Shown: positions 10,356 through 37,256 of the stretch, piece by piece
How positions within the stretch are numbered: the first letter of the stretch is position 1
Layout: each line of letters opens with the position of its first letter
Assembly (NCBI GenBank): GCA_024280995.1
Contig: JAMXLM010000015.1
Span: forward strand, 62,001-126,000
Direction: 5' to 3'
Source: Candidatus Dormiibacterota bacterium
GTDB taxonomy: Bacteria > Chloroflexota > Dormibacteria > Dormibacterales > Dormibacteraceae
DNA: 64,000 nt
Made by a program: the position numbers and the translations under genes
Notes under the pieces: model-generated
What the model was told of the DNA's origin: nothing
What the model saw: the letters and a program-made list of their open reading frames with translations, nothing else
Database searches by the model: none

Positions 10356-10415
10356 CGCCTACCCCTGTACCGGCGTCGGAATCATATAGCGCGCCGGTGA
10401 CCCCGTCATGCTAAA

Positions 10416-10429
10416 CAAACGCTCGTTAG
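10416..10429. promoter_or_regulatory. Operator site b (CAAACGCTCGTTAG)
   Basis: A perfect match to CNAACGNNCGTTNG. It sits in the spacer just upstream of the rightward -10 box, where a bound repressor would occlude RNA polymerase. It is shared with the leftward MaoC unit. Confidence 0.78.
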
Positions 10430-17093: not shown

Positions 17094-17821
17094 GGCTCGG
17101 GCTCGGCCCCATCTCGCTCGCCGGCGCGACGCGATCGCAGCTTGTCGCGCTTGCCGAAGCCGCGGTCGCGGCGTCGTTCGACGCGGTCTGGATCGCGGAG
17201 GCGCGGTCAGACGGAGTGGGGGGCGGTGTGGCGGCGGCCGCGTTCCTCGCCCAGCAAGTCCCGATCCGGGTGGGCGCGGCGCTCGACTTCGGCGCCTACC
17301 ACCCGCTCTATGCCGCCGAAGACATCGCCGTCGCGGACATCGCGTCCCGCGGACGAATCGAGGTGCTGCTTCGTGGCGGTTCGGCAGAGCAGCGGCGGTT
17401 GCTGCTCGAGGCGCTGGGCGGCGCCCACCTGCGTTTCGACGGCGAGAGCCTGCGGGTGCCGGCGCGCCTGGAGGCGAACCAGCCTTCGCCGGAGCGGCTC
17501 GCTCTGAACCCGCGGCCACTCCAACCTGCGGTCCCGGTCTGGGTCGAGGACGCGGACGAAAGCGAGGCGCGCTCGCTTGGCTTCGGCATCGCGAGGAGCC
17601 GGCGTCCCAACGCAACCGCACCTCCGTCGGTGGGACGCTGGCCGGGGATGCTTCTGTGCCCCGGCGACGTTGCGGCCGAAGATCTGCTCCACGCCGCCGG
17701 CCACGCGGCGGCTTACTTTCTCATCGGCGCGCGCACGGCAGAACACGTCGCGACGGCAGGTCGTCGCCTGGTGGGTCCGCTCCGCATGCCGGGCTTTCCG
17801 GAGTGGATCAACAAGCAATAA
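17090..17821 (+). CDS. Short LLM-like protein, probable partner of LLM 6
   Basis: 243 residues, ATG 17090 overlapping the LLM 6 stop. MRLGLGPISLAGATRSQLVA and FDAVWIAEARSDG keep the LLM strand 1 and strand 2 pattern, but EHHF is replaced by EARS. The segment YHPLYAAEDIAVADIASRGR corresponds to the usual hP..lAe.....d.ls.GR. The protein is about 80 residues shorter than full LLMs and lacks much of the C-terminal half. It is the counterpart of the gene at 3029; both end near a MP.FP motif. A non-catalytic beta subunit is the inference. Confidence 0.7.
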   Translation: MRLGLGPISLAGATRSQLVALAEAAVAASFDAVWIAEARSDGVGGGVAAAAFLAQQVPIRVGAALDFGAYHPLYAAEDIAVADIASRGRIEVLLRGGSAEQRRLLLEALGGAHLRFDGESLRVPARLEANQPSPERLALNPRPLQPAVPVWVEDADESEARSLGFGIARSRRPNATAPPSVGRWPGMLLCPGDVAAEDLLHAAGHAAAYFLIGARTAEHVATAGRRLVGPLRMPGFPEWINKQ

Positions 17822-17832
17822 ACGAGCGTTCG
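17819..17832. promoter_or_regulatory. Operator site c (TAAACGAGCGTTCG)
   Basis: Matches CNAACGNNCGTTNG except for the first base. It overlaps the last codon of the preceding operon and lies just upstream of, touching, the -35 of the next. Confidence 0.7.
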
Positions 17833-17860
17833 TTTGTTTCAGAAAAAGCTGTGCTATCGT
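17832..17860 (+). promoter_or_regulatory. Putative promoter of the selenoprotein/2-oxoacid dehydrogenase operon
   Basis: GTTTGT, 17-bp spacer, TATCGT (17855-17860) with TGC just upstream as an extended -10. The ATG at 17869 follows after eight bases, predicting a leaderless message and independently supporting that ATG as the true start. Confidence 0.5.
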
Positions 17861-17868
17861 GACCGCGG

Positions 17869-18399
17869 ATGAAGGCGCAATCCGACGTCGTCCTCTACAC
17901 CCTCAACAGCCTGACGACCGACCCGACTTGAACCGAATGTTGCAGGGTGAGGGAGTTTCTCTCACAGAACTCGGTCGAGTACGAAGAGCGAAACATCGCG
18001 AAGGAACCGCGCTGGCGGGAGTCGCTGAAGGAGCTCACCGGTGAGGCGGTCGTGCCCGTGCTGCTCGTGGACGGGCGGCAGGTGATCGGGCTCGACGAGC
18101 GGCGCATGGCGGACGCGTTGGGCCTCGACCACTTCGTCGCTGAAAGCAATCGGGACGGCCTCGAGGCGCCTCCAGAGCTCGCCGGCCTGCCGCAGGAAGG
18201 CGACGACGCGACATCCACCGCGCTCATCCACCTCGCGCGCCGGCTGCAGAAGGAGATGGACTACAACGCCGCCAAGGACGGCTCTCCCTATCGCGACGGC
18301 CAGCATGACGGCATGCGTTACGCGCGCGACGCGATACTGCGCATCCTGACGGGTACATATGAGCCTGAAGGGATGGTCATCGAGCGCGGCAAACCCTGA
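17869..18399 (+). CDS. Glutaredoxin-like selenoprotein candidate (in-frame TGA at 17929-17931)
   Basis: From ATG 17869 the frame reads MKAQSDVVLYTLNSLTTDPT, then TGA, then TECCRVREFLSQNSVEYEER and on to the TAG ending at 18399, 176 residues if TGA is read as Sec. DVVLYT is a thioredoxin-fold strand 1. The TGA falls where the first Cys of a CxxC would be, giving U21-T-E-C24. VREFL..N.VEYEERNI and VVPVLLVDGRQVIGLDE (with the cis-Pro region) are classic glutaredoxin elements. A C-terminal helical extension of about 90 residues follows. A hairpin resembling a bacterial SECIS begins 1 nt after the TGA. Starting instead at GTG 17947 would remove strand 1 and the redox motif. Alternatives are a nonsense mutation or a sequencing error. 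It heads the 2-oxoacid dehydrogenase operon. Confidence 0.72.
17933..17974 (+). other. SECIS-like stem-loop after the in-frame TGA
   Basis: Pairs: CCGA (17933-17936) with TCGG (17971-17974), GTT (17939-17941) with AAC (17968-17970), GTGAG (17947-17951) with CTCAC (17961-17965). The 9-nt apical loop GGAGTTTCT begins with G, and 20 nt separate it from the TGA. This fits what is known of bacterial SECIS elements: a short upper stem, a G at the start of the loop, and a loop about 16-37 nt after UGA. Confidence 0.6.
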
Positions 18400-18439
18400 A
18401 CCGGCGCGCCGGGCGCGCGCAGGGCGCACCTCGCCTGAC

Positions 18440-19540
18440 GTGAGCGAAGCGGCGCCCGCCGCACGGAACAGGCTCGACGGTGTTCGGTCCGTGGAGCTCC
18501 CGCCGATGGTGAGATATCTCGACCAGGACGGCGAGCTGCTCGACGACCAACCGATGAGTGACGAGCTTGCGCTCGAGGGCTATCGCGTCATGCTTCGGGG
18601 CCGTCGCTTCGACGAGCGCTGCGTCAGCCTGCAGCGCCAGGGCCGCATGGTCACGCTCGCACCCGGCATCGGGCAGGAGGCCGCCACCGTCGGGGCGGCG
18701 ATGGCGCTCGACCCCAAGACCGACTGGTTCGTGCCGCAGTACCGCGAGCTGGCCGGGCAGCTGTGGCACGGGTATCCATTGCGGCTCGCGTTTCTCTGGC
18801 ACGTCGGCCACCCGATCGCGTTCCAGGTGCCGGACGACTTGAAGATGCTCCCGTTCCAGGCCGCGATCGCGGGTCAGCTGCCGCAGGCTGTCGGTCTGGC
18901 GTGGGGGCTGCGCCTGAAGCACGACCCCGGCGTCGTCCTGGCCGTCTTCGGCGACGGAGGTACGTCGCAAGGTGACTTTCATGAGGCGCTGAACCTCGCC
19001 GGCGTGATGAAGGCGCCGGTCATGTTTCTCTGCCAGAACAACGGGTGGGCGATATCGACGACGGTTGAGCATCAGACCGCCTCGGCGTCACTCGCGCAGA
19101 AGGCGCTCGCATATGGATTTCCAGGCGTCCAGTGCGACGGCAACGACCTGTTCGCCGTCTACGCGACGGTGCGCGACGCAGTGGCCCGTGCTCGGGCCGG
19201 CGAAGGCCCGACCCTCATCGAGGCGATGACGTACAGGCTCGGGTTGCACACGACGGCGGACGATCCGACGCGCTACGAGCCGCGCGAGATGCACGAGATG
19301 TGGGTCGACAGGGACCCGTTGCGCCGGATGCAGATCCATCTCGTGTCTCGCGGCGTCGTCGATCGATCCGGTCTCGAACGCATTGAGGACGAGGTCAAGG
19401 AAGAGCTTCGCGTGGCATGGGACGAAGCGCAGAAGGAACCTGCCCCTGACCCGGCGTACTACTTCGGGCGCGCGTACGCGTCGACGTCACAGCGACTTGG
19501 ATCACAGCTAAGCAGGTTCGAGAGGAAGGGCCTTGGCTGA
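18440..19540 (+). CDS. 2-oxoacid dehydrogenase E1 component, alpha subunit
   Basis: About 366 residues, a thiamine diphosphate-dependent decarboxylase subunit. GIGQEAATVGAAMALDPKTD and WFVPQYRELAGQLW are typical of E1 alpha. The ThDP/Mg motif is GDGGTSQGDFHEALN with NNGWAIS about 25 residues on. A HTTADDPTRYEP phosphorylation-loop-like segment suggests the branched-chain/pyruvate E1 family. The start is uncertain: ATG 18359 overlaps the upstream gene by 41 bases, GTG 18440 is non-overlapping, and ATG 18506 is also possible. With E1 beta it feeds the E2 lipoyl domain. A branched-chain or novel 2-oxoacid is as likely a substrate as pyruvate. Confidence 0.9.
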   Translation: MSEAAPAARNRLDGVRSVELPPMVRYLDQDGELLDDQPMSDELALEGYRVMLRGRRFDERCVSLQRQGRMVTLAPGIGQEAATVGAAMALDPKTDWFVPQYRELAGQLWHGYPLRLAFLWHVGHPIAFQVPDDLKMLPFQAAIAGQLPQAVGLAWGLRLKHDPGVVLAVFGDGGTSQGDFHEALNLAGVMKAPVMFLCQNNGWAISTTVEHQTASASLAQKALAYGFPGVQCDGNDLFAVYATVRDAVARARAGEGPTLIEAMTYRLGLHTTADDPTRYEPREMHEMWVDRDPLRRMQIHLVSRGVVDRSGLERIEDEVKEELRVAWDEAQKEPAPDPAYYFGRAYASTSQRLGSQLSRFERKGLG

Positions 19541-20510
19541 GCTCACGATCGTCGAGGCGATCAACACCGCGCTCGCGATCGAGATGGAGCGGGACGAGCG
19601 CGTGCTCGTCTTCGGGGAAGACGTCGGGGTGACGGGTGGAGTGTTCCGAGCCACCGATGGCCTGTTCCAGAGGTACGGCGATGCGCGCGTCATCGACACG
19701 CCGCTGGCCGAAGGCGTAATCGCCGGCGCGGCTATCGGTCTCGCCATCGCCGGCTGGGTGCCGGTCGCTGAGATCCAGTTCCTCGGCTTCGCCCACAACG
19801 GCTTCAACCAGGTGGTGGATCAGCTGGCGCGAGCGCGCTATCGGTCCGCCGGCCGCTTCTCGGCGCAGGTCACGATCCGGGCTCCATACGGCGGCGGCGT
19901 CCGCGCGCCGGAGCTGCACTCAGACGCTTTCGAAGCGCACTTCACACACGCGCCCGGTCTGAAAGTCGTCGCGCCCGCGACGCCTGCCGACGCAAAGGGG
20001 TTGCTGCTTTCGTCGATCCGCGACCCCGACCCTGTGATGTTTCTCGAGCCTTTGCGCGGATACCGACAGGTGAAGGGCGAGGTCCCCGACGGTGACTACC
20101 CGGTCGAGCTGGGCAGCGCGCGGGTCGCGCGCGAGGGGACCGATGTGACGGTGATCGCATGGAGCGCGGCGGTGCAGGTGGCTCAGCAGGCGGCGGAAGA
20201 CGCGCAGGCGCAGGGCATATCGGTCGAGGTCATCGACCTGCGCACGCTGGTTCCTCTGGACGTCGCTGCGATCGCGGCGTCGGTAACCAAGACGGGCCGC
20301 GCCGTCGTCGTGCAGGAGGCGCCGCTGACCTCAGGCTTCGCCGGCGAGGTCGTGGCGACCATCCAGGAGGAAGCCTTCTTCTCGCTTCAGGCGCCGATTC
20401 GCAGGGTTGCGGCCCCCGACGTGCCCTATCCGGTGCAGATGCTCGAGGAGCACTACGTGCCAAACGCCGAGCGCGTCCTCGAAGCGATCATCGCCACCAC
20501 CCGAGACTGA
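19533..20510 (+). CDS. 2-oxoacid dehydrogenase E1 component, beta subunit
   Basis: 325 residues, TTG 19533 after a good GAGAGGAAGG site and overlapping E1 alpha by eight bases. Motifs: LTIVEAINTALAIEMERDER, VFGEDVGVTGGVFRAT, DTPLAEGVIAGAAIGLA (catalytic Glu region), APYGGGVRAPELHSDAFE and AVVVQEAPLTSGFAGEV. Full length for the family. It completes the E1 heterotetramer. Confidence 0.95.
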   Translation: MAELTIVEAINTALAIEMERDERVLVFGEDVGVTGGVFRATDGLFQRYGDARVIDTPLAEGVIAGAAIGLAIAGWVPVAEIQFLGFAHNGFNQVVDQLARARYRSAGRFSAQVTIRAPYGGGVRAPELHSDAFEAHFTHAPGLKVVAPATPADAKGLLLSSIRDPDPVMFLEPLRGYRQVKGEVPDGDYPVELGSARVAREGTDVTVIAWSAAVQVAQQAAEDAQAQGISVEVIDLRTLVPLDVAAIAASVTKTGRAVVVQEAPLTSGFAGEVVATIQEEAFFSLQAPIRRVAAPDVPYPVQMLEEHYVPNAERVLEAIIATTRD

Positions 20511-20513
20511 GCA

Positions 20514-21704
20514 TTGAGCAAGTTCGAGTTCCGGCTGCCGGACATCGGTGAGGGGCTGGCCGAGGCCGAGGTCGGCAAGTGGCTGGTCGGCGTCGGCGAT
20601 CGAGTCGTCGAGGATCAGCCGGTCGTCGAGATGATGACCGACAAGGCGGCGGTCGAGATTCCCTCGCCCGGCGCCGGCATCGTGGTCGAGCAGCGCGCGG
20701 CGGAGGGCGACGTGGTGAAGACAGGGGCCGTCCTGTACGTGCTCGAAGCCGACCAACCGATCGGGGCGGTGGGACACGCGGCCGCTCCTCGGGCCGAGGT
20801 CCGGTCCGAAGGCGCGGCGGCGCCTGCCCCGTCCGAGTCGGGCGGCGGCGTGCTGGCGCCGCCCGCGGTCCGCAAGCTCGCGCGCGAGCTGGGCGTCGAC
20901 CTGGCGCGGGTAAAAGGCAGCGGCCCGGCCGGCAGGATCACCGCAGAGGACGTGCAGCGTCAGGCGGCGGCGGCCGGAGCGGCCCGCGCCGCACCCGCAT
21001 CGCCCGCCGACGGCGGCCGCCGAGTCCGTCTTCGCGGCGTGCAGAAACGCATGGCCGAGACCATGTCGCTGTCGGCGCGATCGATACCGCACGTCACGGG
21101 TTTTCACGAGGTGGACGCGGGTCACTTTGTCGAGCTCGCGTCGCGCCTGCGTCGGGCGGCCGAGGAGCGCGGCGGCCGCTTTCCGTTCGACACGCTGCTC
21201 GTGCGCGTGGCCGCGCTCGCGCTGAGGCAGCACCCGATCTTCAACGCGTCACTCGACGAGGCGGCGGGCGAGATCGTCATGCACGACGACGTCAACGTCG
21301 GCGTCGCGACCGCGACCCGCGAAGGGTTGATCGTGCCCGTGGTCAAGAACGCCGACACGCTCGACCTCGAGGAGCTCGCCGCGGAAGTCGATCGTGTCGC
21401 CGCGGCCGCCCGGGATGGCAGGGCGACGCTGGCCGACCTGCAGGGCGGCACGTTCACGATCAGCAACACGGGCGCCTGGCGTGGCGGTCTCGGCACGTCG
21501 CTCATCCGCCCGCCAGAGGTCGCGATCGTCGCGTTCGGCCGAGTCGAGGAGCGCGCGGTCGTGCGCGAGGGCCAGGTCGTCGCCCGTCCGATCATGCCGA
21601 TGTCGGTCACATTCGACCACCGGGTCATCGACGGCGAGCAGGGTCTCGGCTTCGCGCTCACGCTTCGAGGCCTGATCGAAGGCCCGCAGGACCTGCACCG
21701 GTAG
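20514..21704 (+). CDS. 2-oxoacid dehydrogenase E2, dihydrolipoyl acyltransferase
   Basis: 396 residues, TTG start at 20514. One N-terminal lipoyl domain (residues 3-78) has the lipoylated lysine K44 in EMMTDKAAVEIPSP. After an Ala/Pro linker comes the E1/E3-binding domain (about 112-150: APPAVRKLARELGVDLARVK, GRITAEDV). The acyltransferase core ends with the HxxxD active site H369-R-V-I-D373 (TFDHRVIDGEQG). It transfers the acyl group from E1 to CoA and passes electrons to E3. Confidence 0.95.
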   Translation: MSKFEFRLPDIGEGLAEAEVGKWLVGVGDRVVEDQPVVEMMTDKAAVEIPSPGAGIVVEQRAAEGDVVKTGAVLYVLEADQPIGAVGHAAAPRAEVRSEGAAAPAPSESGGGVLAPPAVRKLARELGVDLARVKGSGPAGRITAEDVQRQAAAAGAARAAPASPADGGRRVRLRGVQKRMAETMSLSARSIPHVTGFHEVDAGHFVELASRLRRAAEERGGRFPFDTLLVRVAALALRQHPIFNASLDEAAGEIVMHDDVNVGVATATREGLIVPVVKNADTLDLEELAAEVDRVAAAARDGRATLADLQGGTFTISNTGAWRGGLGTSLIRPPEVAIVAFGRVEERAVVREGQVVARPIMPMSVTFDHRVIDGEQGLGFALTLRGLIEGPQDLHR

Positions 21705-23053
21705 TGGTCGCCGGAGACCAGTCCGACCCGGCCGACGTCCTGATCCTCGGCGGCGGCCCCGCCGGCTACGTCTGCGCGATTCGGGCCGCCCAGAACGGGC
21801 GCGCGGTGACGCTGGTCGAGCGGGCGAGAGTCGGGGGCGTCTGCCTCAACGAAGGGTGCATCCCGAGCAAGCACCTGGCCGTCTTCGCGGCCGCAAAAGC
21901 GAGCGCTGAGCGCTTCGCGCCGGCGGGGATGCCGGCGTTCGCGGGGCAACCGGACCTGGTCGCGTTCCAGAAGGTCCGCGCCTCGGCCATCGATGGTCTC
22001 GTCAAAGGCGTCGAAGGCCTGCTCGCAGGGGTTGGGGTGACCCTAATCCGCGGCAGCGCATGGTTCGTCGGCAGGACGAGGGTCTGTGTCGCGGTGGGCG
22101 AGGAGTCGGTCCGCTACTTCGACTTCAAAGACGTCGTGATCGCCACCGGTTCGTGCGCTGCCTCCGTGCCCGGGCTCCCGCTCGATGGCGATCGGGTGGT
22201 GGAAGCGAGCCGCGCGCTCGAGTGGACCTCGGCGCCGGCAAGCCTGCTGGTCACCGGGGATGACTACGTGGCTCTCGAGCTCGCGGTCGCCTTCGCCCGC
22301 CTCGGGAGCAAGGTCACGATCGCCACGCACAGCGACCGTCTGCTTCCCGACTTCGACCCGGACCTTTCGCGGGCTGCGCAGCGTGGCGCGGCGTCCGCCG
22401 GGGTCGAGGTGGCGTTGAGCAGCGACCCGGCGAGCTTCGCGGACGGCGCGGAACGCGTGATCGTCTCCGCCGGGCGCGTGCCGAACGTCGCCGACCTCCA
22501 TCTGCACGCCGCCGGCCTGACAACGGGTCACGCCGCACTCGAGGTCGACGACCACCTGCGCCTCGACCGCCACGCCTACGCCATCGGCGACGTGACCGGC
22601 GCGCCGATGCTGGCGCATCGCGCGTACGCGCAGGGCCGGGTGGCGGGCGACATCCTCGGTGGCCGGCCCGCGGCGATGGACGTCCGCGCGATGCCTCGCG
22701 TCGTGTACGCCGAGCCGGAGATCGCCACCGTCGGACAGACCGATGCCGGCCCGGACGTGCTGGTCGGCAGGTTTCCGCTCGCAGCCCTCGGTCGGGCCGT
22801 GATCGAATCGAGCACGCAGGGCTTCGCCAAGCTCGTGTTCGCGCGCGAGGGAGGAATGTTGATCGGCGCGCACCTGGCGGGCCCCCACGCCACCGATCTG
22901 ATCGCCGAGATGGCGCTCGCGATCGAGATGGGTGCGACCGCCGACGACCTGGCCATGACCGTGCACGCCCATCCGACGTTTGCGGAACCGGCGGCCGAGG
23001 CGGCCGAGGTCGCGCTCGGCAAGCCGATCCACGTCCGGCCGCGCAAGCCGTGA
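21704..23053 (+). CDS. Dihydrolipoamide dehydrogenase (E3)
   Basis: 449 residues, GTG 21704 sharing one base with the E2 stop. FAD motif DVLILGGGPAGYVCAIRAA, redox-active disulfide C47 and C52 in GGVCLNEGCIPSK, a second Rossmann region near residue 180-200, HAYAIGDVTGAP (FAD) and the C-terminal HPTFAE His-Glu pair. The NAD motif is less canonical (LLVTGDDYVALELA, usually GGGYIGLE), an odd but probably tolerated change. It reoxidises the E2 lipoyl group. Confidence 0.93.
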   Translation: MVAGDQSDPADVLILGGGPAGYVCAIRAAQNGRAVTLVERARVGGVCLNEGCIPSKHLAVFAAAKASAERFAPAGMPAFAGQPDLVAFQKVRASAIDGLVKGVEGLLAGVGVTLIRGSAWFVGRTRVCVAVGEESVRYFDFKDVVIATGSCAASVPGLPLDGDRVVEASRALEWTSAPASLLVTGDDYVALELAVAFARLGSKVTIATHSDRLLPDFDPDLSRAAQRGAASAGVEVALSSDPASFADGAERVIVSAGRVPNVADLHLHAAGLTTGHAALEVDDHLRLDRHAYAIGDVTGAPMLAHRAYAQGRVAGDILGGRPAAMDVRAMPRVVYAEPEIATVGQTDAGPDVLVGRFPLAALGRAVIESSTQGFAKLVFAREGGMLIGAHLAGPHATDLIAEMALAIEMGATADDLAMTVHAHPTFAEPAAEAAEVALGKPIHVRPRKP

Positions 23054-36183: not shown

Positions 36184-37224
36184 TCAGTCGATCGCCGGCT
36201 CTGTCAAGGGAACCATTTGCCCGCCGTGGATCGTCCACAGGCTCACCGGCGCATCTATGCGGTCGCCGCCCGCGCTGAAACGAATGTGGCCGCCGTAGCC
36301 CTCGAGGTCGGTCGCGGCGATCGCGTCCCGCACCTCTGCCCGGTTGCTCGCCCCACTCTCGAGCGCGGCGACGATGACGCTGACGGCGTCGTAGCACTCG
36401 ACGACATACGAGGGCGTCTCGCCGATCGCGTCGCGGCAGCGCCGCACGAGCTCTCGCGTGGCGGGGGTCGCGGTCGGGTCTGAACCCGCGTACAGGTGCA
36501 CGCTGCCCTCGCCCGCCGGGCCGGCGAGCCGGACGATCGGATTGTCGGGGCCGCCTTCGGAGCTGATGACCAGGGGATGCAGCCCAGCCGCGGACAGAGC
36601 GCGCATGAGCTTGCCGCTTTCGATCTCTGTGGCGCCCAGGTCGACGACATCCGCGCCGCCGGCCCGGATCTCTTCGACGATCCCGGCAAAGTCCACCTGT
36701 CCGACGTGCATCGCGAGCACGCGCACCGGCCCCCCGCCGAGGTCTTTGAGGGACAGCGCAAAAGCCTCGATCAGGGGCCGGCCGTAATCGGTGCCGTCGT
36801 GCACCGCGAAGACGCGCCCGCCAGGCCGCCGCCCGTGAGCGAACCGGGCTCCCACCTCGGCCTGCCGCTCGTTGTCGGCGCACATGCGGAAGAACGTGCG
36901 CCACCCTGAGCGGCTCAGCGCGTTGTCGGTCGAGCACTGCGTGACCTGCGCGATGCCGGCCTCGGCGTAGATCGGCGCTGCTGCTTTGCTCGGTCCGCTG
37001 TTCTTGTGTCCGACGACCGCGATCACTCTCGAGTCGGCGACGAGCTCCTTGGCCGCCTGCACGGCGGAAGCCTCAATCTCAAAGTCGTCGACGGCCTTCA
37101 CCTCGACGTCGATTCCACGCTCGCGAGCCTCGGCGACGGCCATCTCGACCGTCCGGAGCATCGGCAGGCCGACGATGGACTGCGGCGTCGTCAACGGGGC
37201 GGCAAAACCGATCAGAAAACGCAC
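36184..37224 (-). CDS. Periplasmic-binding-protein-like ligand-binding protein without signal peptide
   Basis: 346 residues of the branched-chain amino acid binding (LivJ/AmiC) fold: FLIGFAAPLTTPQSIVGLPM, VIAVVGHKNSGPSKAAAPIY, GRVFAVHDGTDYGRPLIEAF, VVDLGATEIESGKLMRAL. The GTG at 37224 starts directly on beta strand 1; no Met/Val start further upstream would add a signal peptide. It therefore looks cytoplasmic, like sensor proteins of the AmiC type, and no ABC permease adjoins it. It is divergent from the MFS gene and its start codon lies inside operator g. Confidence 0.78.
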   Translation of the reverse strand: MRFLIGFAAPLTTPQSIVGLPMLRTVEMAVAEARERGIDVEVKAVDDFEIEASAVQAAKELVADSRVIAVVGHKNSGPSKAAAPIYAEAGIAQVTQCSTDNALSRSGWRTFFRMCADNERQAEVGARFAHGRRPGGRVFAVHDGTDYGRPLIEAFALSLKDLGGGPVRVLAMHVGQVDFAGIVEEIRAGGADVVDLGATEIESGKLMRALSAAGLHPLVISSEGGPDNPIVRLAGPAGEGSVHLYAGSDPTATPATRELVRRCRDAIGETPSYVVECYDAVSVIVAALESGASNRAEVRDAIAATDLEGYGGHIRFSAGGDRIDAPVSLWTIHGGQMVPLTEPAID

Positions 37225-37229
37225 GTTCG
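37216..37229. promoter_or_regulatory. Operator site g (AAAACGCACGTTCG)
   Basis: Matches CNAACGNNCGTTNG except the first base. It overlaps the start codon of the leftward binding-protein-like gene and lies 28 bases upstream of the MFS ATG. Confidence 0.68.
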
Positions 37230-37256
37230 TTCGTCTCAGTACTTTAAGCTGCCTGC

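Follow-up and report, generated by a model that had tools for sequence, protein, structure and literature searches.

A putative selenocysteine-containing glutaredoxin gene at the head of a lipoyl-dependent dehydrogenase operon in a Chloroflexota bacterium

The window analyzed here is a 64,000-nucleotide stretch of contig JAMXLM010000015.1 from Candidatus Dormiibacterota bacterium (assembly GCA_024280995.1), of the phylum Chloroflexota. On its plus strand, a frame running from an ATG at 17869 to a final TGA at 18397 to 18399 contains a sole internal stop, a TGA at 17929 to 17931, which falls at the first position of a CxxC motif (U-T-E-C), precisely as the original prediction had described. We annotate this frame (17869 to 18399) as a Sec-glutaredoxin gene, based on a Pfam PF00462 match and a homologue in a related genome, and the internal TGA as a putative selenocysteine (Sec) codon, based on the aligned TGA or Cys codons of homologues and on the selA, selB, selC, and selD genes of the genome. 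The read-through product, which begins MKAQSDVVLYTLNSLTTDPT-U-TECCRVREFLSQNSVEYEERNI..., would comprise 176 residues, including U21, C24, and C25. The residues on both sides of the TGA had been called glutaredoxin-like, and the Pfam Glutaredoxin match indeed spans it, covering residues 7 to 71 (E 2.7e-14; 53.6 bits versus a gathering score of 22.9). The protein carries the UTEC and VVP (cis-Pro) motifs, within a predicted structure of low confidence, and the domain as a whole extends over approximately residues 7 to 86, with an insertion of ~6 residues between strand 1 and a UxxCC active site. The C-terminal extension (~90 residues, from ~90 to 176) has no match in Pfam (best E, 0.11) and is predicted, with low confidence, to be helical. 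The AlphaFold model is poor (mean pLDDT of 52, from a two-sequence input), and Foldseek with this model returned nothing at an E value below 0.001. As had been anticipated for gene callers, the ORF obtained with translation table 11 starts exactly at GTG 17947, and the active site is lost wherever that ORF is used.

Directly downstream, also on the plus strand, lie the genes of a 2-oxoacid dehydrogenase: E1 alpha (18359 to 19540, with a possible start at 18440; PF00676, E 2e-76), E1 beta (19533 to 20510; PF02779/PF02780), the lipoyl acyltransferase E2 (20514 to 21704; PF00198, PF02817, and PF00364), and a dihydrolipoamide dehydrogenase-like E3 (21713 to 23053; PF07992 and PF02852). Upstream of the glutaredoxin gene are genes for a proline racemase, an ornithine cyclodeaminase-like protein, and luciferase-like flavoenzymes. 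The proposed position at the head of a lipoyl-dependent dehydrogenase operon is borne out, and the order (LLM-like, glutaredoxin, E1 alpha, E1 beta, E2, E3-like) is the same at the homologous locus, L014 (genome G010), where an E1 alpha orthologue with 88% identity lies directly 3' of the glutaredoxin gene. Among 17 genomes of the genus, the glutaredoxin gene occurs in two and the orthologous E1 alpha in the same two only, other E1 matches being at most 55% identical. As neither occurs without the other, the glutaredoxin gene and the E1 operon travel together, a co-occurrence that rests on two genomes. The absence of the glutaredoxin gene from the other 15, most of which have selA, marks it as an accessory gene.

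Two short elements precede the gene. A weak −10-like TATCGT lies on the plus strand at 17855 to 17860, 8 nt upstream of the ATG; a transcript from it would be leaderless. The −10 box of the original prediction is thus present, and conserved in L014, but it agrees with the consensus at only 4 of 6 positions, and a sigma-70 consensus scan found no promoter. Farther upstream, at 17820 to 17835 on the plus strand, is the palindrome AAACGAGCGTTCGTTT, found in the same place in L014 and putatively a TetR-type operator or repressor site. Three copies with up to 2 mismatches occur in the window, against 0.11 expected; these near-copies of AAACGANCGNTCGTTT, at 17820 to 17835, 10413 to 10428, and 37217 to 37232, each lie shortly 5' of a possible start codon and could possibly form a TetR-type regulon.

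The closest relative of the window protein is encoded at L014, in the Chloroflexi MAG VBFH01000045, with 81% protein identity over the full length and the same TGA. It was the only match in a full-length search among genome contigs, and full-length homologues of the window-type architecture number two, from one genus. Of codons 6 to 20, which precede the TGA, 12 are identical between the two genes, 2 differ synonymously, and 1 is changed; over the full gene, the counts are 52 synonymous and 34 changed. The pre-TGA part is therefore under protein constraint, which would not be seen in a truncated gene starting at 17947. Across the hairpin described below, the two genes are identical for 41 nt without a break; an unchanged run of 13 codons occurs in 0.9% of shuffles (P = 0.009). 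The original prediction had pointed to related genomes as the place to look for the same TGA, and its recovery from an independent MAG argues against a sequencing error.

A profile search over 400 genomes of the phylum, after which the loci were read directly, turned up another 30 glutaredoxin genes in which TGA occupies the homologous residue, along with many that have Cys at residue 21, the two states anticipated for homologues at this position. Together with the window and L014 genes, these make up 32 Sec forms. The TGA in the 30 phylum genes is mostly followed by xxC and K-E-F-L-S, and the residues E-F-L-S are largely retained among Sec forms and largely gone from Cys forms. The codon for the Ser that follows E-F-L lies within the hairpin; this Ser occurs in 27 of the 32 Sec forms and does not rank among the five commonest residues at that position in Cys forms. 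In a tree of 81 columns, weak at depth and with long branches meeting at this pair, the window protein and L014 stand alone on a long branch with support of 100/97. Sec-glutaredoxins appear to be common in Chloroflexota, being found in L051, L060, L064, L066, L068, L070, L081, L084 to L086, L095, and others. The L066 protein is fused to a PDZ tail, and others of equal length look alike; we know of no description of such a fusion. In L036, L039, and L040, from the same class as the window, a glutaredoxin domain lies in frame with thioredoxin reductase, apparently fused. Many genes flagged as having a TGA inside in the class-level search proved to have mere terminal stops of short Cys glutaredoxins and were discarded as support.

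Downstream of the TGA is a candidate bacterial SECIS (bSECIS) hairpin (17947 to 17965, plus strand), which we assign from covariation, a leave-out covariance model, and published bSECIS constraints. The stem pairs 17947 to 17954 with 17958 to 17965 (8 bp) around an apical GUU loop (17955 to 17957); it starts 15 nt and its loop 23 nt after the TGA, with an energy of −8.9 kcal/mol. A hairpin had been predicted here with 5 bp and a 9-nt loop; the element exists but is better drawn as above. The lower stem proposed beneath it can be predicted in the window but is weak and differs in L014. Published constraints call for an apical loop of 3 to 9 nt with G within its first two positions, a stem of 4 to 16 bp, a distance of 16 to 37 nt from the UGA, and an energy of at most −7.5 (PMC13188914), and the window hairpin agrees with these in its GUU loop, stem, distance, and energy.

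The hairpin is common to the other Sec glutaredoxins, which supports the original SECIS reading. Across the 32 Sec forms, it follows the pattern GYGARRGA-GUU-UCYYUCRC, with compensatory changes, at a similar distance from the TGA. The common form is GCGAAAGA-GUU-UCUUUCGC; the window has GUGAGGGA-GUU-UCUCUCAC instead, with all pairs preserved despite the substitutions. Over the 32 sequences we count 26 double-changed cells, compared with 7.7 in shuffles, and four pairs changed on both sides; sliding the partner strand kills the signal (89% paired in register versus 40 to 71%). Seven or eight of the eight pairs are kept in 25 of the 30 other Sec forms, and the remaining five have a shifted 7-bp version, GCGAAGG-AGUU-CCUUCGC, or one near it. 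In contrast, 30 rows of Cys forms (including three thioredoxin reductases and two out-of-register rows) have at most five of the eight pairs, most having one to four. An 8-bp hairpin at that place arises in 0.28% of 5,000 synonymous-codon versions of the window gene, whereas over the full 48 nt the total folding energy is ordinary relative to synonymous shuffles (z of −0.6), so the signal is a local hairpin rather than overall stability. A covariance model built from 30 sequences, with the window and L014 left out, scores the window site at 31.1 bits, the top match in the whole 3.02-Mb genome (E 2.2e-5; next, 0.19); these E values are rough, and as the model also carries shared protein-coding signal, the match speaks for a homologous site in addition to a common structure. 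An earlier model, which had the window among its sequences, gave 33.6 bits to a Cys glutaredoxin at L041:1519-1568, perhaps a recent Sec-to-Cys change. Together with E-F-L-S, the hairpin shared by 32 genes is a clear example from nature of protein sequence being constrained by an RNA element.

All four genes for Sec insertion, whose presence the original prediction had left to be checked, are found in the window genome. selA scores above its cut-off and is directly followed by selB on contig C9; selD is on contig C2 and a tRNA-Sec with anticodon tca (UCA) is on C18. SelD itself carries an in-frame TGA (SHGAG-U-ACKLSPVE), so Sec decoding is very probably used elsewhere in this genome. This selD (L010; G000:C2:217819-218730, minus strand) is a candidate selenoprotein gene in its own right, with a strong stem-loop 3' of the TGA. 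We rejected selA presence as a tracker of the glutaredoxin gene: most of the 15 genus genomes lacking that gene have selA, as does nearly the whole family.

Two readings dispense with Sec altogether. The TGA could be a real or artefactual stop in a decaying Cys glutaredoxin, and both sources are indeed draft assemblies (46 contigs for the window genome and a 20-kb MAG contig for L014). However, two distinct species, with proteins 81% identical, have the same TGA, and the changes on either side of it are mostly synonymous. TGA also stands at the homologous codon of 30 more glutaredoxin genes, and the hairpin is conserved with compensatory changes; we consider a pseudogene or an error very improbable and close to refuted. 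Fewer chances still do we give to a 150-residue product translated from GTG 17947, with the upstream frame untranslated, even though the table-11 ORF starts there. Codons 6 to 20 are conserved as protein in L014 and encode the first strand of glutaredoxin, the SECIS stem begins at this very GTG, and without strand 1 and an active site a glutaredoxin would be expected neither to fold nor to function. Wherever the original prediction had named a checkable outcome against itself, the result favored the Sec-glutaredoxin reading.

We therefore hold with high confidence that the gene encodes a Sec-decoded protein with a glutaredoxin-type reaction, leaving aside its redox partner. To the extent that sequence can show it, we regard Sec decoding as established; Sec coding, machinery, SECIS, and operon linkage have support from comparative sequence data, while the catalytic chemistry we infer from the family. 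The SECIS loop, 23 nt past the UGA, would recruit SelB with Sec-tRNA-Sec, and UGA codon 21 would be read as Sec, with translation going on to a 176-residue protein. In thiol-disulfide or selenenylsulfide exchange, Sec21 would then act as the nucleophile, with Cys24 (or Cys25) as the resolving thiol. Encoded at the head of a lipoyl-dependent 2-oxoacid dehydrogenase operon, the protein may work for the complex itself or for its redox neighbors.

That the dehydrogenase complex is the redox partner is plausible but speculative, and we consider it somewhat less likely than not. About as likely as not, the selenoglutaredoxin is a general thiol reductant, fed by thioredoxin reductase or a low-molecular-weight thiol and sharing only a transcript with the dehydrogenase, an alternative to the partner assignment alone. 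A thioredoxin reductase is present in the genome, a glutaredoxin adjoins or is fused with one elsewhere in the class, and other Sec-glutaredoxins of the phylum have a PDZ tail instead; against this, the gene and the E1 operon occur together in two of 17 genus genomes and neither alone. A dedicated, lipoyl-driven selenoredoxin is the more specific proposal, and an unlikely one in our estimate: Sec21 would be reduced by dihydrolipoyl-E2 or E3 and pass electrons to disulfide or peroxide clients, with the helical C-terminal extension docking on the complex. If true, this would give a 2-oxoacid dehydrogenase an electron outlet based on Sec. A literature search, with subscription journals mostly outside it, found no report of a Sec-glutaredoxin paired with a 2-oxoacid dehydrogenase. 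The operon makes it possible to test whether selenium is tied to a dehydrogenase of central carbon metabolism.

A comparable known system is the Lpd/DlaT/AhpD peroxidase of Mycobacterium tuberculosis, in which a small thiol redox protein is fed by a lipoyl-dependent dehydrogenase complex. AhpD has a different fold from glutaredoxin and lacks Sec, and for the window protein the coupling to a dehydrogenase complex is only proposed. As cited in PMC9312934, Kim et al. (2011; PMID 21210868) reportedly verified a selenoprotein glutaredoxin experimentally. Sec glutaredoxins with UxxC are already known (PMC1794560, PMC13188914, and PMC9312934), and reviews list the selenoprotein glutaredoxin (PF00462, UxxC) with WP_010943784 as an example; two reviews on prokaryotic selenoproteins do not mention Chloroflexota in their text. 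The window protein resembles the known selenoprotein glutaredoxin in its Pfam glutaredoxin domain, Sec at the first redox position, resolving Cys, and bSECIS, but differs in the ~6 extra residues before the active site, the UxxCC motif, the C-terminal extension, and the dehydrogenase operon. With the L066 protein it shares the Sec position and a homologous SECIS hairpin; however, its tail is not a PDZ domain, and the window pair has its own tree branch (100/97). Its best NCBIfam scores are to the glutaredoxin-like (seleno)proteins UXX-star and GlrX_YruB, at 37.5 bits for NF041212 (Uxx-star; cut-off, 66) and 43.5 bits for TIGR02196 (GlrX_YruB; cut-off, 88.55), which places it outside both curated families by their cut-offs. 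The longer pre-active-site loop, the Pfam-less C-terminal extension, the isolated tree branch (from few columns), and the link to an E1-E2-E3 operon are new and extend the known Sec glutaredoxins by one divergent architecture.
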